Positions 25,133 through 29,422 of a stretch of DNA of 64,000 nucleotides are shown here, in pieces. The stretch is from Prolixibacteraceae bacterium (GTDB taxonomy: Bacteria > Bacteroidota > Bacteroidia > Bacteroidales > Prolixibacteraceae). The translations under genes and the position numbers were made by a program. The notes beneath the pieces are model-generated. The model was given only the letters and a program-made list of their open reading frames with translations, ran no database searches and was not told where the DNA came from. The stretch's first letter is position 1, and each line of letters begins with the position of its first letter. The stretch is taken from NCBI GenBank assembly GCA_009773765.1, contig WTWZ01000004.1:1-64000 (forward strand). Direction: 5' to 3'.

Positions 25133-26443
25133 CTAAAACCTCTCACGAAAAACGGATACCAGCGGTTCAACCAAACGTTCGATTAACCGGCGGTCTTTGG
25201 TGATGATTTCGGCAGCGCCCTGCATTTCCTGGTTAAACGGGAGTTCTTTTTTATAATTGGTTACGAGGTTATCGGTCAATTTGATTTCAGCAGTGTAATA
25301 ACTACCTTTTTCATTGGTTACCGGCACCATTGAAATATTAGTGATTTCCCCTTCCAGCAGTCCGTATTCCATGTAGGGATAATTGTCGAGTTTAATGTTG
25401 ACACGTTGCCCAACTTCAACTTTACCTGCACCAGCAATGGGAACGGTTGCTTTCCCGATAATTTCCTGCCTGTTTTCAGGAACCACGTTAAATACCACAT
25501 TCCCGGCTGACACAAACTGGTTTACACTCCAGAAATTGGTAAATGTAACCTGCCCTGCAATGGGTGATTTCAATACAAAAGCCTGCCCCCACGCTTTTAA
25601 CTGGTTAACAAGGTTATCATATTTTTCTTTGAGGGCAGCCAGTAACTTGTTCTCAGTTTCGGCTTTCAGCACTTTTTGTTCCTGAATTTGCTGTTTCAAC
25701 TGGTTCATTGTTATTTGCGTGCTTGCCAGGTTGGTCATCGCATTTCGGTAAGCATATTTTTGCTTTAACATGGCTGCCTGCGATTTTTCAAAATCGACAT
25801 CGGACATCACTTTCCGCAAATGCAAAACCGAATCGCGGTGAAACTGGCTCGATGCCAGAATATAATCCTGGTTTAAAACGCTTATTTGCTGCCTGAGTTT
25901 TTCGTAATAATTGGCATAATCGGTTACCTGTTTTTCCAGCGACTTAATTCGCTGCTCGTAAGTATTGAAGCTTACCGACGTTTGGTATTCGCGAAGCTGG
26001 CTTACCAGCGACGAATAATAAGCATGATTCTGGCCAAGGCTGTATTCCTTGTTAAACGTAAGGGTACTCAACAATCCGGGTTGACTAAAATACGGCTGAA
26101 TTCTTTCGAGTAACCCAATCAGTTCGTAAGCATCTTCATAATTTGCCGGATTCTCGATGATTGCTAAAATTGAATTGGCTTCGACTTTTTGTTTATCGGC
26201 AACAAAAATTTTATCGAGTTTCCCATCCGATCGTGCAACCACGGAAACAGGCGGATTTTCGGAAACAATAGTAACCCGCGCGTTGATAATATCGGGATAT
26301 TTGTAAAAATAACTACCTGCAAGTAAAATAACAACCACAATCAGAATAATGGTAATTCCCCATCTTACAATCCAACGGGGAGGAGTCCCCATTATTTCCT
26401 GTACTTCATCGGAGCGAATTTCTATTTTAGTTGATTCTGACAT
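25133..26443 (-). CDS. HlyD-family secretion adaptor (membrane fusion protein)
   Basis: The 436-residue protein has a short cytoplasmic N-terminus, one membrane anchor (about residues 28-48, rich in Ile/Val) and a periplasmic part. A biotinyl-lipoyl half (VARSDGKLDKIFVADKQKVE, near residue 70-90) precedes a long helical hairpin (about 130-280), and the second half (LKSPIAGQVTF) follows. Such adaptors link a C39 or type I ABC transporter to an outer-membrane TolC channel. The ABC transporter is upstream on the same strand, but a toxin-antitoxin module lies between. Its ATG overlaps the toxin stop by one base (TAATG). No TolC gene is adjacent. Confidence 0.85.
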   Translation of the reverse strand: MSESTKIEIRSDEVQEIMGTPPRWIVRWGITIILIVVVILLAGSYFYKYPDIINARVTIVSENPPVSVVARSDGKLDKIFVADKQKVEANSILAIIENPANYEDAYELIGLLERIQPYFSQPGLLSTLTFNKEYSLGQNHAYYSSLVSQLREYQTSVSFNTYEQRIKSLEKQVTDYANYYEKLRQQISVLNQDYILASSQFHRDSVLHLRKVMSDVDFEKSQAAMLKQKYAYRNAMTNLASTQITMNQLKQQIQEQKVLKAETENKLLAALKEKYDNLVNQLKAWGQAFVLKSPIAGQVTFTNFWSVNQFVSAGNVVFNVVPENRQEIIGKATVPIAGAGKVEVGQRVNIKLDNYPYMEYGLLEGEITNISMVPVTNEKGSYYTAEIKLTDNLVTNYKKELPFNQEMQGAAEIITKDRRLIERLVEPLVSVFRERF

Positions 26444-26821
26444 TATCTCATCAAGTTCAAATTTTCAATCCGCTCAAAATGCTTTAAATTCAACGTTGCA
26501 ATTGGCATTTCATAAGCCATGGCGGTTGCACCAATTAATATATCGGCTAAATCTATCATTTTATTCTTTTTCAGCAATTCTAAATAAATTTTTTATAGCC
26601 GAATCAGAACAAGCTTTATCAAATGGTAAAATAGTCAGACTTTCACAAAGCTTATCCCAATAATCTGAATGTGATTTTTTATTACCGACACCAACTTCGT
26701 AATAAGTAATTGCTGAAATCGACAACTCAGTGTGCAAATTTGAAATTTGATAAAAAAAGGTATTTTGTTTATCCTTCTTTCGGAATAACTCTATTAATAC
26801 TGAAGAGTCTAATACAATCAT
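26443..26821 (-). pseudogene. VapC-like PIN-domain toxin, frameshifted
   Basis: The first frame (26821 down to 26561, 86 codons) starts MIVLDSSVLIELFRKK with the PIN-domain acidic residues Asp5 and Glu42 (YYEVGVG), and stops after FRIAEKE. The rest of the domain is in another frame: LLKKNKMIDLADILIGATAM and then IATLNLKHFERIENLNLM, ending at TAA 26443-26445. Together they make one normal-length VapC. The junction lies near 26561-26575 in an A-rich run (CTGAAAAAGAATAAAA), a likely slippage point. It could be a true frameshift mutation, a sequencing error in the homopolymer, or, less likely, ribosomal frameshifting. Upstream the gene overlaps its antitoxin by four bases. Confidence 0.75.
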
Positions 26822-27045
26822 GCAATTCTGGATTTATTGATAGAGTTTCTGGCTTCCTGAAAATCATTAAAATCTGATTTTGTCCAAGTGGGCGACTGAA
26901 GTACCAATTCCTGAATATTTTCAGCCGTTTTTTTTAAAGTTAAATCTCTCTGCAAAGTCCTTGTCAACTTTTCAATATCCTTTTTTGGAAGTTGATGAAT
27001 CAGTTTTAAAATTTGAGCGTAATCTATTTTAATTGTTAGTTCCAT
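26818..27045 (-). CDS. antitoxin of a VapBC-like module
   Basis: The 75-residue protein starts MELTIKIDYAQILKLIHQLP and continues with charged, helical sequence (KKDIEKLTRTLQRDLTLKKT), ending in a segment (SPTWTKSDFNDFQEARNSIN) likely to wrap the toxin. Upstream codons up to 27093 are open only from a TTG that lies in the promoter, so the ATG at 27043-27045 is the start. It overlaps the PIN toxin by four bases (ATGA), the usual coupling in such modules. The antitoxin call rests mainly on this arrangement. Confidence 0.7.
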   Translation of the reverse strand: MELTIKIDYAQILKLIHQLPKKDIEKLTRTLQRDLTLKKTAENIQELVLQSPTWTKSDFNDFQEARNSINKSRIA

Positions 27046-27063
27046 AATGATTTCATTATATGT

Positions 27064-27093
27064 CAAAAATACAAAAAGAAAAAACTCCATCAA
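27064..27093 (-). promoter_or_regulatory. promoter of the toxin-antitoxin module and probably hlyD
   Basis: TTG at 27091-27093 and TATTTTTG at 27064-27071 on the minus strand, separated by 19 bases, match the Bacteroidota pattern. Transcription would start near 27058, about a dozen bases before the antitoxin ATG. Because hlyD follows the toxin with a one-base overlap, this promoter should also read hlyD. Confidence 0.7.
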
Positions 27094-27151
27094 ATATCAT
27101 TCATCCTGACAAATGAATTCTTTTAAACTTCAAAATTCACTTTTCCCGTCT

Positions 27152-27168
27152 CCTTCCCCCGGGGAAGG
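27152..27168. repeat. palindrome downstream of the ABC transporter
   Basis: CCTTCCCC at 27152-27159 and GGGGAAGG at 27161-27168 form a near-perfect palindrome with one central base. It lies 20 bases after the transporter stop and resembles in composition the palindrome inserted inside the same gene at 29094-29112. It may act as a weak terminator, but no U tract follows on the minus strand. Confidence 0.6.
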
Positions 27169-27187
27169 CCAGAATTGGGCTTCTCTT

Positions 27188-29422
27188 TTATGTTCCCAGT
27201 TCCAACTGGTTTTTTACAAGGTTATAATATTCTCCCCTTTTTGCAACTAATTCGCTGTGTGTACCCAATTCAACTATTTCCCCTTTTTCCAATACAACAA
27301 TCTGGTCTGCATTTTTTACTGTACTCAGGCGGTGCGCAACAGTAATTACAGTTTTTCCTATATAAAAATCATTCAGATTTTCAACAATCACCTTTTCGTT
27401 ATTGGCGTCGAGCGAGTTGGTTGCTTCATCGAAAAACAAAAACCCGGGGTTTTTATATATGACACGGGCTATAAGTATGCGTTGTTTTTGCCCCTGGCTT
27501 ATTCCTGAACCCTCCTGCCCTATTTTGGTATTGTACCTTAACGGAAGGTTTTCAACAAAATCCACAATGTTTGCCATTGTTACCGCCTTAAAAAGTTTAT
27601 CGCGGTCGGGAACATCGTCGCCAACGGCAATATTGCTGGCAATGGTATCAGAAAAAACAAAACCGTCCTGCATAACTGCCCCGCAGTTTCCACGCCACAT
27701 TTCCATGTTAAACTGCTGAAGGTTGATCCCGCCGATTTCAATCTTTCCCTCTGCCGGAGGATAAAACCCAAGTAAAAGTTTTACCAGCGTGGTTTTGCCA
27801 CTTCCGCTGGCGCCGACAATGGCTGTTATTTTGTTTTCGGGGATGGTTAAATTAATATCGTTGAGTACGCGCGGCGACTTTGGCCCCTCGTAATGAAACG
27901 ACAGGTTTTTTATTGTGATGTCCCTGTTTTGTGGCAATTCATCGTTTTTCATCACCCCTTCCTGTTCTTCTTCCTCCCGGTTATGAATTTCGCCCAATCG
28001 TTCGAGGCTGATTTTTGCGTCCTGCCCCGCCTGTATAAAACCAATAAATTCGTTAATAGGGCTGTTCAGTTGGCCAATTATATATTGAACGGCCATCATC
28101 ATACCCAAAGTCATGTTTCCCTCAACCACAGCTTTGGCAGCAATAAACGAAATTATAATATTTTTTGCCTGGTTAATTAAAGTAGAACCGGCCTGTTGGT
28201 TTTGTGTGAGCATTAAACCTTTCACGCCCACCCTGAACAGCCGGGCCTGAATGCGTTCCCACTCCCACCGTTTTTGTTTTTCGCAGTTGTTCAATTTAAT
28301 TTCCTGCATCCCGGTTATCAACTGGTAAACATTGCTTTGATTTGCAGCCGCCACACTAAAGTGTTTATAATCGAGTTCTTTTCGTTTTTTCAGAAAAAGC
28401 AAAATCCAACCTACGTACAATGCGCTTCCCAAATAAAATATCAAAAGGATTGACCAGTCGTAATAAGCCATCACAAAACTGTATATGATAAAAATGAAAA
28501 TGCCGAACGACATGCTAATCAGGTTCCCGGTGAGAAACGACTGGATCCGCTGGTTATCGTCAATCCGTTGCCGAAGGTCGCCAATCATTTTGGTATCGAA
28601 AAAGCGGATTGGCAGTTTCATCAGTTTGATGAGAAAGTCGGAAATAAGCGAGATGCTGACTCGGGTGCTGGTGTGCAGCATTATCCAGCTACGGATGAAC
28701 CCAACGGCAGTCTGGCTTACAGTGAGCACCAACTGCGCTATCAAGACCAAAACAATAAAACTGAGGTTGTTTGTCGCAATACCCACATCGACAATGGCCT
28801 GGGTTAAAAACGGAAAAATAAGGCTGAGCAAACTGCCGGTGAGAAACCCAAGTACCAGTTGGGTCAACAATTTCCGGTATGGTTTAAGATAAGTAAGCAG
28901 GTACTTGAAACCAGCTTTGTTCACCTTTTCTCCCTCCTCTTTATAAAACTCGGCAGTGGGTTCAAGCAAAAGTGCAATGCCTGCCGGTACTCCTTCCTGT
29001 TGAGTTGAAGCCCAGCACTTTAAAAATTCTTCGGAATTATATTCAACGAGTCCATGAGCGGGATCGGAAATGAAATAAGAAGCCCCCTCCCGGCCTCCCC
29101 CGGAAGGGGAGGAGAAAAAAGACTTCGTCTTCTTTTTAATTTTATACAATACAACAAAATGATACTGGTTCCAGTGTAAAATCACAGGCATCGGAATTTC
29201 CAGGAGTTTGTCAATTGCTAACCTGACGCCTTGTGTGCGAAAACCGATTTTTTCGGCGGCATCGCTGATGGTTAGCAGTGAAACACCTTCGCGGGTTTTC
29301 CAGGTGAGGTTGCGCAGGGTTTCCAGATTATAATGCCGCCCGAAATGCTTTGCCACAATCCGCAAACAGGTTGGGCCGCAGTCCATGGCATCGGGTTGAA
29401 GATAATGTGGAAACTTTGGCAT
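27188..29422 (-). CDS. peptidase-containing ABC transporter (C39, bacteriocin/peptide export type)
   Basis: The 744-residue protein combines three modules. The N-terminal C39 peptidase has Gln9, Cys15 (QPDAMDCGPTCL), His88 (QYHFVVLYKI) and Asp120 (SDPAHG), a complete catalytic set. A six-helix membrane domain spans about 180-460. The ATPase domain has GASGSGKTT, the signature ISQGQKQR in place of LSGGQ, and FLFFDEATNSLD. Such proteins cut the leader at a double glycine and export the peptide. Odd point: residues about 98-115 (including SSPSGGGREG), between His88 and Asp120, come from a palindromic insertion at 29094-29112. No double-glycine substrate is obvious nearby. Confidence 0.92.
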   Translation of the reverse strand: MPKFPHYLQPDAMDCGPTCLRIVAKHFGRHYNLETLRNLTWKTREGVSLLTISDAAEKIGFRTQGVRLAIDKLLEIPMPVILHWNQYHFVVLYKIKKKTKSFFSSPSGGGREGASYFISDPAHGLVEYNSEEFLKCWASTQQEGVPAGIALLLEPTAEFYKEEGEKVNKAGFKYLLTYLKPYRKLLTQLVLGFLTGSLLSLIFPFLTQAIVDVGIATNNLSFIVLVLIAQLVLTVSQTAVGFIRSWIMLHTSTRVSISLISDFLIKLMKLPIRFFDTKMIGDLRQRIDDNQRIQSFLTGNLISMSFGIFIFIIYSFVMAYYDWSILLIFYLGSALYVGWILLFLKKRKELDYKHFSVAAANQSNVYQLITGMQEIKLNNCEKQKRWEWERIQARLFRVGVKGLMLTQNQQAGSTLINQAKNIIISFIAAKAVVEGNMTLGMMMAVQYIIGQLNSPINEFIGFIQAGQDAKISLERLGEIHNREEEEQEGVMKNDELPQNRDITIKNLSFHYEGPKSPRVLNDINLTIPENKITAIVGASGSGKTTLVKLLLGFYPPAEGKIEIGGINLQQFNMEMWRGNCGAVMQDGFVFSDTIASNIAVGDDVPDRDKLFKAVTMANIVDFVENLPLRYNTKIGQEGSGISQGQKQRILIARVIYKNPGFLFFDEATNSLDANNEKVIVENLNDFYIGKTVITVAHRLSTVKNADQIVVLEKGEIVELGTHSELVAKRGEYYNLVKNQLELGT
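29094..29112. repeat. palindromic element inserted in frame in the C39 domain
   Basis: CCTCCCC at 29094-29100 and GGGGAGG at 29106-29112 form a stem with a five-base loop. A second small stem, AAGAC at 29119-29123 with GTCTT at 29127-29131, follows directly. Together they encode the SSPSGGGREG-like loop and adjacent Lys/Phe residues between two catalytic residues of the peptidase. The palindrome is GC-rich against an AT-rich gene, and the reading frame stays open. Confidence 0.65.

Follow-up and report, generated by a model that had tools for sequence, protein, structure and literature searches.

Within the 64,000 nucleotides of Prolixibacteraceae DNA analyzed here (hereafter the window), the gene of a C39 peptidase-ABC exporter contains a palindromic stretch inside the coding sequence of its peptidase domain, which raises the question of what this stretch is, how it came to lie there and whether the exporter tolerates it. 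An initial annotation had described an element read in frame, with a main and a small stem, and a similar palindrome past the gene stop, all of which is borne out: the element spans 35 nt, the frame is intact, both stems are present in the sequence, and the downstream palindrome is a degenerate relative of the first. The features concerned are as follows.

27188 to 29422, minus strand: host gene, C39 peptidase-ABC exporter, 744 aa, intact frame
29009 to 29413, minus strand: Peptidase_C39 domain (residues 4-138), which carries the insert and keeps Cys15, His88 and Asp120
29080 to 29114, minus strand: palindromic element composed of a 5' arm, hairpin, spacer and GGGAGGGGGCTT tail, 35 nt, R1 match of 48.5 bits
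29094 to 29112, strand not assigned: main stem CCTCCCC/GGGGAGG, seen in the sequence and in the fold
29119 to 29131, strand not assigned: small stem AAGAC/GTCTT adjoining the element, seen in the sequence
27148 to 27182, plus strand: second, degenerate palindrome copy directly past the exporter stop codon, R1 match of 30.3 bits

R1 is a covariance model built on 14 copies of the palindrome, and since both window copies belong to this training set, their scores of 48.5 and 30.3 bits are biased high.

In addition to the peptidase domain, the exporter comprises an ABC membrane domain and an ABC ATPase domain. Between His88 and Asp120, which we take to be catalytic residues of the C39 domain and whose numbering in the initial annotation is right by count on the translation, the protein reads KIKKKTKSFFSSPSGGGREGASYFISDP. 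The sense-strand DNA at the insert is ...TTTTTTCTCCTCCCCTTCCGGGGGAGGCCGGGAGGGGGCTTC..., in which the CCTCCCC/GGGGAGG hairpin is followed by the spacer and then by the tail. As sense-strand RNA the insert region folds with -30.2 kcal/mol (z -2.26), equally good folding being obtained in 3 of 200 shuffles, while two core patterns each matched once in the window, against 0.01 and 0.00 matches expected, respectively. Approximately 18 extra residues had been proposed, whereas the net gain relative to close orthologues is 11-12 residues (33-36 nt). The closest solved sequence relative of the C39 domain, 6mpz, has HFVVLKGFKGKYAYINDP at the insert position, probably representing a hairpin turn; a fold of the domain predicted from its single sequence was too poor to judge (mean pLDDT 37). 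The insert would only extend the tip of the hairpin joining the His88 and Asp120 strands and would be a tolerated passenger in a peptidase that is presumably active. The hairpin tip evidently tolerates length, since in the distant orthologues L034-L036 it is occupied by long loops that differ in composition. The suggestion that the insert abolishes processing thus appears unsupported, given this natural variation in tip length, the retained frame and key residues, and the presence of two copies in a sister species.

The exporter protein was searched in 61 genomes and the 30 loci returned, including its own, were all aligned. Nine orthologues are 82-87% identical, eight of which are informative, L033 having no coverage of the site. 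Seven of these eight (L025, L026, L028-L032) lack the element, their sequence at the site being shorter by 11 or 12 residues, and the segment is therefore not of the same length everywhere; the eighth, L027 from genome G027, carries two family members at the site, both facing the same way and in frame (FFSSLPLGGRVGDGASSSPHGGGREGA). The element is absent from the remaining 20 orthologues, which are approximately 60-64% identical. The small stem differs on both sides between species (AAGAC/GTCTT in the window, AAAAC/GTTTT in L027), as if pairing had been kept; because L027 carries its version at the same place, the small stem probably belongs to the original insertion. It could be argued that the segment is a GC-rich hairpin tip of variable length, i.e., low-complexity sequence arisen by chance and no element at all, as the long loops of unrelated composition in L034-L036 might suggest, but its presence or absence among orthologues of 82-87% identity, its doubling in L027 and the close matches to it at other genomic places make this explanation practically negligible.

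A palindrome copy also lies past the exporter stop in the orthologues L026 and L030. In the window, two small genes (26561-27093, minus strand), presumably a PIN toxin and its antitoxin as judged by eye, are located between the exporter and an HlyD-like gene (25133-26443). The HlyD-like gene of L025 directly follows the exporter stop, and the PIN-like pair and the second palindrome therefore look like later arrivals.

The palindrome belongs to a family that is dispersed throughout the genome. A looser pattern matched 15 places in the 4.27-Mb genome versus one for the reversed control, some of them in coding frames, and the further copies that the initial annotation proposed to look for thus exist. 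Two copies, L007 and L008, lie in a single context that has been duplicated, and both were excluded from the training alignment of the covariance model. R1 identified at least 104 places in this genome at E<=1 and at least 63 at E<0.01 (150 of 846 candidates scored), while R2, a model trained on 94 matches from own-genome loci, some of which represent one place seen in overlapping loci, identified at least 96 places at E<=0.01 (150 of 649 candidates scored). At least one R2 palindrome is present in 34 of 37 genomes; at E<=0.01 there are 89 in G022 and between 0 and 31 in each of the other 35 genomes.

The flanks of 76 of the 104 R1 places were listed, and many of these copies, as judged by eye, lie directly upstream of start codons or at stop codons, while 14 lie within a frame having at least 40 codons on each side. 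Six of the 14 are found in recognizable proteins, namely IleRS (two), ValRS, C39, a MazG-like protein and a ComB-like phosphatase; two (L056 and L090) returned no Pfam match, and this protein identification leaves out L076, L082, L092, L098, L099 and L110. The MazG-like protein (L059) has eight additional residues at the palindrome when compared to 2gta, and the ComB-like phosphatase (L117), in which the palindrome is likewise in frame, exhibits no clear extra length at that position in the PDB alignment. Solo copies are characterized by a pyrimidine-rich stretch 5' of the hairpin and a single tail, and the C39 copy also possesses the pyrimidine tract. In 4 of the 76 copies GTAG or CTAC occurs close to one or other end of the 35-nt match, and CGTC or GACG does so in one; a CGTC at 29126-29129, inside the small stem of the window copy, is absent in L027.

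The initial annotation missed that these palindromes also form the ends of a larger unit, which is located in frame within housekeeping genes. The genome harbors two PF04480 (DUF559) matches of 117.7 and 114.3 bits (Pfam cut-off 20.6), and both genes are in-frame inserts, one within IleRS and one within ValRS, with palindromes on each side. In IleRS, whose frame extends over 1309 codons, two inverted palindromes bound an insert of approximately 140 residues, where DUF559 is recognized by Pfam. The ValRS gene is split between contigs 91 and 115 of this genome (G000): contig 91 ends inside the outer palindrome, of which 22 nt are present with a score of 18.2 bits, and the rest of the gene opens contig 115, from which it would seem that the assembly may break at DUF559 units. 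DUF559 is, to our understanding, a Vsr/PD-(D/E)XK-like endonuclease. Its relative in the PDB, 3hrl (E 2.9e-23), is named endonuclease-like, and the candidate catalytic residues D43, E54, D56 and H60 (numbering of A4, an alignment of 12 sequences) are invariant in all 12 aligned domains. We consider, with a probability of roughly 0.7, that the C39 site holds a solo member of a family of dispersed hairpin-forming palindromes of this Bacteroidota lineage which, as inverted pairs with tails facing outward, constitute the ends of DUF559 endonuclease units.

Both insertion sites occur in sister species in empty, full and palindrome-only states. Among 30 loci covering the IleRS site, five are full (L215-L219), two are reduced (L224 and L243), 18 are empty, mostly reading WKENFKDV, and five were not extracted; the corresponding numbers for the ValRS site are five full (L245-L249), four reduced (L250, L264, L268 and L273) and 21 empty, with IEGEDEF-like sequences. 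R2 palindromes are present at five of the six reduced sites, singly in L224, L250 and L273 and as two inverted copies in L264 and L268, while the sixth, the IleRS site of L243, scores too low for R2 and was interpreted by eye. No R2 palindromes were found in the empty loci L221, L222 and L251; in L260, which is empty at the ValRS site, they are located elsewhere in the locus. The latter locus (genome G035) contains an inverted pair at 2168-2299, located approximately 660-790 nt further along than the usual ValRS site and apparently within the ValRS frame, possibly representing a second insertion point in this gene. All extracted reduced sites are in frame, and L264 is read as a deletion product on the basis that it retains both palindromes and stubs resembling the DUF559 ends. 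In one further locus (L127, genome G029), the stretch of a DUF559 unit within the ValRS frame contains stops. No target-site duplication was seen by eye at the IleRS, ValRS or C39 sites, and insertion at the ValRS and IleRS sites replaced, very roughly, 9-24 nt.

Given these palindrome-only in-frame inserts, found in sister species at both the IleRS and the ValRS site, and the two palindromes at the C39 site of L027, the C39 insert could be the deletion scar of a DUF559 unit formerly present there. We regard this as unlikely: the two copies in L027 share one orientation whereas those of a unit are inverted, the C39 copy bears the pyrimidine tract typical of genomic solo copies, and none of the 28 orthologues covering the site possesses a DUF559 unit, for which reason the C39 copy cannot be called a scar of such a unit. 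With no unit known at the site and a flank of the solo type, insertion as a solo palindrome is favored.

The units may alternatively be inteins or introns that are removed after transcription or translation. Inteins insert at conserved points of conserved genes, as do the DUF559 units. However, Pfam finds DUF559 alone in the IleRS and ValRS inserts and no splicing domain in the own-genome IleRS and partial ValRS frames, a search of four loci for self-splicing introns yielded no Rfam family at E up to 0.1, the reading frame runs through the insert without a break, and both reduced sites and solo palindromes remain in frame, which together render removal highly improbable. No second full-length IleRS gene was listed in the search of the genome, and IleRS therefore presumably works with its insert, unless the insert is removed.

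The association between DUF559 and flanking palindromes extends beyond this genome. In the genus, DUF559 is represented by 100 matches in 33 of 37 genomes, and flanks were analyzed for 90 loci (L124-L213), with the domain located in 87 and both flanks being long enough in 86. The best inverted flank match exceeded the 99% shuffle level in 48 of these 86 loci, which are not independent cases since many are orthologous, compared to 0 of 24 control genes; flank pairs drawn from different loci exceeded this level in 10%. Several palindrome classes flank the genus DUF559 genes among the matches listed, and only some of these belong to the R1/R2 family. Two genomes (G015 and G018) possess three palindromes each and no DUF559 match, while G024 has three DUF559 matches and zero R2 palindromes. 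Loci L211-L213, considered as candidates for this DUF559 unit, were rejected by eye as other nuclease-type proteins. Separately, a different DUF559 subfamily was seen by eye in frame inside a seeming restriction-modification protein (L171, genome G033), and contig 1 of G027 (L168, positions 42-943) carries six R2 palindromes in the same orientation, spaced 172-175 nt apart, close to a DUF559 gene.

A wider scan was performed with the A4 alignment, of which the best 80 of 550 relatives, nearly all from Bacteroidota, were kept, a selection that favors the subfamily of the query. Of these best 80, 75 are in frame with a conserved host protein, 72 of them with at least 60 residues on each side and three (L307, L319 and L344) cut by a contig end. 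The other five (L314, L341, L342, L351 and L352) are free-standing DUF559 genes of 124 codons; they are closely alike, derive from Bacteroidales records (one from horse faeces) and rank near the top of the scan by inverted-repeat score (37-72). As identified from conserved motifs and by eye, the hosts in the best 80 of 550 are IleRS, MetH and RecG (15 each), MetRS (7), CinA (6), LeuRS (5) and adenine deaminase (4), with urocanase and MiaB-like proteins (two each) and ValRS, UvrA, PurL and an IcmF/MeaB-like protein (one each) being rarer. MetH hosts harbor two different insertion sites, and the IleRS host L304 is occupied at a different site from the others. All nine hosts chosen for verification, i.e., RecG, IleS, MetH, MetG, CinA, LeuS, UvrA, FGAM synthase and adenine deaminase, were recognized by NCBIfam, the host match in each case being interrupted around DUF559. 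Two in-frame cases come from records that bear the labels Ignavibacteriaceae (L307, MetH) and Candidatus Saccharibacteria (L322, urocanase), which reflects either transfer or wrong binning.

Applying R2 at E<=2 within 220 nt, by a script count from hand-transcribed rows, palindromes with tails outward were found on both sides of 51 of the best 80 and on one side of 23, with six having none; at no locus among the best 80 did a side carry only palindromes of the wrong orientation. The inverted-repeat score exceeded the 99% shuffle level for 38 of 77 DUF559 genes versus 6 of 137 control ORFs in the same loci. The same arrangement of the unit thus recurs in many conserved genes across the phylum. 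A tree of 100 DUF559 domains (the best 80 and 20 chosen genus loci; 106 columns; 54 of 96 inner branches open) requires 23 changes among 16 host labels, the minimum being 15 and the shuffled mean 71.4, with none of 200 shuffles as low, although this clustering is inflated by near-copies. RecG (support 0), CinA (68) and MiaB-like (91) labels each occupy one side of a branch, while those of IleRS, MetH, MetRS and adenine deaminase are more mixed. The tree fits elements that would usually stay at one site and occasionally switch to another. A predicted fold of RecG-DUF559, based on 13 sequences, yielded nothing firm (mean pLDDT 55, pTM 0.28), with low values for the linkers around DUF559.

The palindromes might instead be ordinary REP elements moved by a Y1 (RAYT-like) transposase, which DUF559 uses as landing sites or spacers. 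The genome contains six PF01797 matches, the Y1 gene of L021 is adjoined by two inverted palindromes of similar build, and palindromes far outnumber DUF559 units (at least 96 versus two in this genome), observations which likewise count against the link with the nuclease. However, as read by eye, the Y1 genes of two of the six loci, L021 and L023, have distinct long inverted repeats at their borders, which are CCCCTCGTTGCAAACGAGGGG-like and CGCGCGATTGCATCG-like, and none of the six is accompanied by a strong match to the palindrome family: the best R1 score is 12.6 bits (L021), and R2 gives 13.7 bits in L021 and 19.9 bits approximately 1 kb from the L018 gene. The scarcity of GTAG or CTAC ends noted above and the outward orientation of palindromes on DUF559 units across the phylum are also at odds with this explanation, which we consider doubtful; a Y1 transposase as mobilizer of these palindromes is not supported, although it retains a low probability.

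Rickettsia offers the best-known case of palindromes read in frame within protein genes, and the analogy drawn with these elements in the initial annotation is apt with regard to in-frame behavior. Two articles (PMC10969869, PMC3733652) describe Rickettsia palindromic elements (RPEs) as short, many-copy palindromic repeats in frame in unrelated protein genes, to which the Bacteroidota palindromes are likened by being read in frame in genes as unrelated as those of C39, MazG-like, IleRS, ValRS and ComB-like proteins. RPEs are approximately 150 bp or correspond to CGTC-tagged REPs (RPE-4/RPE-6), while the Bacteroidota family measures approximately 35 nt, is without the CGTC tag and flanks DUF559. 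PMC3733652 indicates that no dedicated transposase seems to serve the CGTC REPs, and REPs inside genes of other species and CGTC repeats in five phyla, including Bacteroidetes, are reported there. GTAG REP/RAYT systems, as presented in PMC3733652 and PMC6006769, consist of dispersed hairpins near gene ends, with intragenic copies, that flank a nuclease/transposase gene, and in these respects the Bacteroidota hairpins, dispersed near gene ends, sometimes intragenic and flanking a nuclease gene, are similar. A mostly Bacteroidetes subclass of TnpA-REP-like genes is noted in PMC6006769 to have atypical flanking structures. Unlike the GTAG REP/RAYT systems, the present family has no consistent GTAG or CGTC tag, and its partner is DUF559 rather than a Y1/HuH enzyme.

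Homing endonuclease genes and inteins place a nuclease at conserved sites in conserved genes, with patchy distribution and site fidelity in trees. The DUF559 units resemble them in that a single conserved site is empty in some sister species and occupied in others (18 and 5 loci for IleRS, 21 and 5 for ValRS), and differ in that no splicing domain was found in them, in their palindromic ends and in the palindrome scars left in the protein. The nearest precedent found for an unspliced homing insertion is the ShiLan domain, described in PMC11855218 as an insertion in a phage methylase with a hidden HNH endonuclease, for which homing is proposed. Both insertions are open in the host frame with no intein or intron signature, whereas the ShiLan HNH is out of frame and DUF559 is read together with its host, is bounded by palindromes and resides in bacterial housekeeping genes.

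A mechanism can be proposed for the origin of these inserts, in which mobility and nuclease activity are, like the activity of the C39 domain, inferred. DUF559 would cut empty alleles in a homing-like manner, with repair copying the occupied allele, and might occasionally cut new sites; deletion of the core between the two palindromes, probably via a one-strand hairpin, would leave palindrome scars. Solo copies would spread too, by the action of DUF559 or another enzyme, and may move by themselves. Since the short palindromes are readable in several frames as peptides rich in G, P, S, R and E, units and solo copies could survive as in-frame inserts. We see an even chance that these are previously undescribed selfish elements of Bacteroidota, i.e., palindrome-bounded DUF559 genes in frame within essential genes, translated unspliced as a lasting domain of the host protein, homing to conserved sites, decaying through hairpin deletion to short in-frame palindromic peptides and seeding many solo copies such as that in C39. 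No account of in-frame DUF559 units was found among the matches listed in the open-access literature, subscription journals being mostly outside this scope, and the titles and abstract openings of the open-access papers naming DUF559 among those matches were without them.

The Bacteroidota palindrome family has a candidate enzyme and a natural series of empty, full and reduced states at two sites, while dozens of conserved proteins apparently work with a central nuclease domain. Where DUF559 appears fused to IleRS, RecG or MetH, it probably represents an insertion rather than a functional domain, and it becomes directly testable both how in-frame palindromes originate and whether homing can proceed without splicing.
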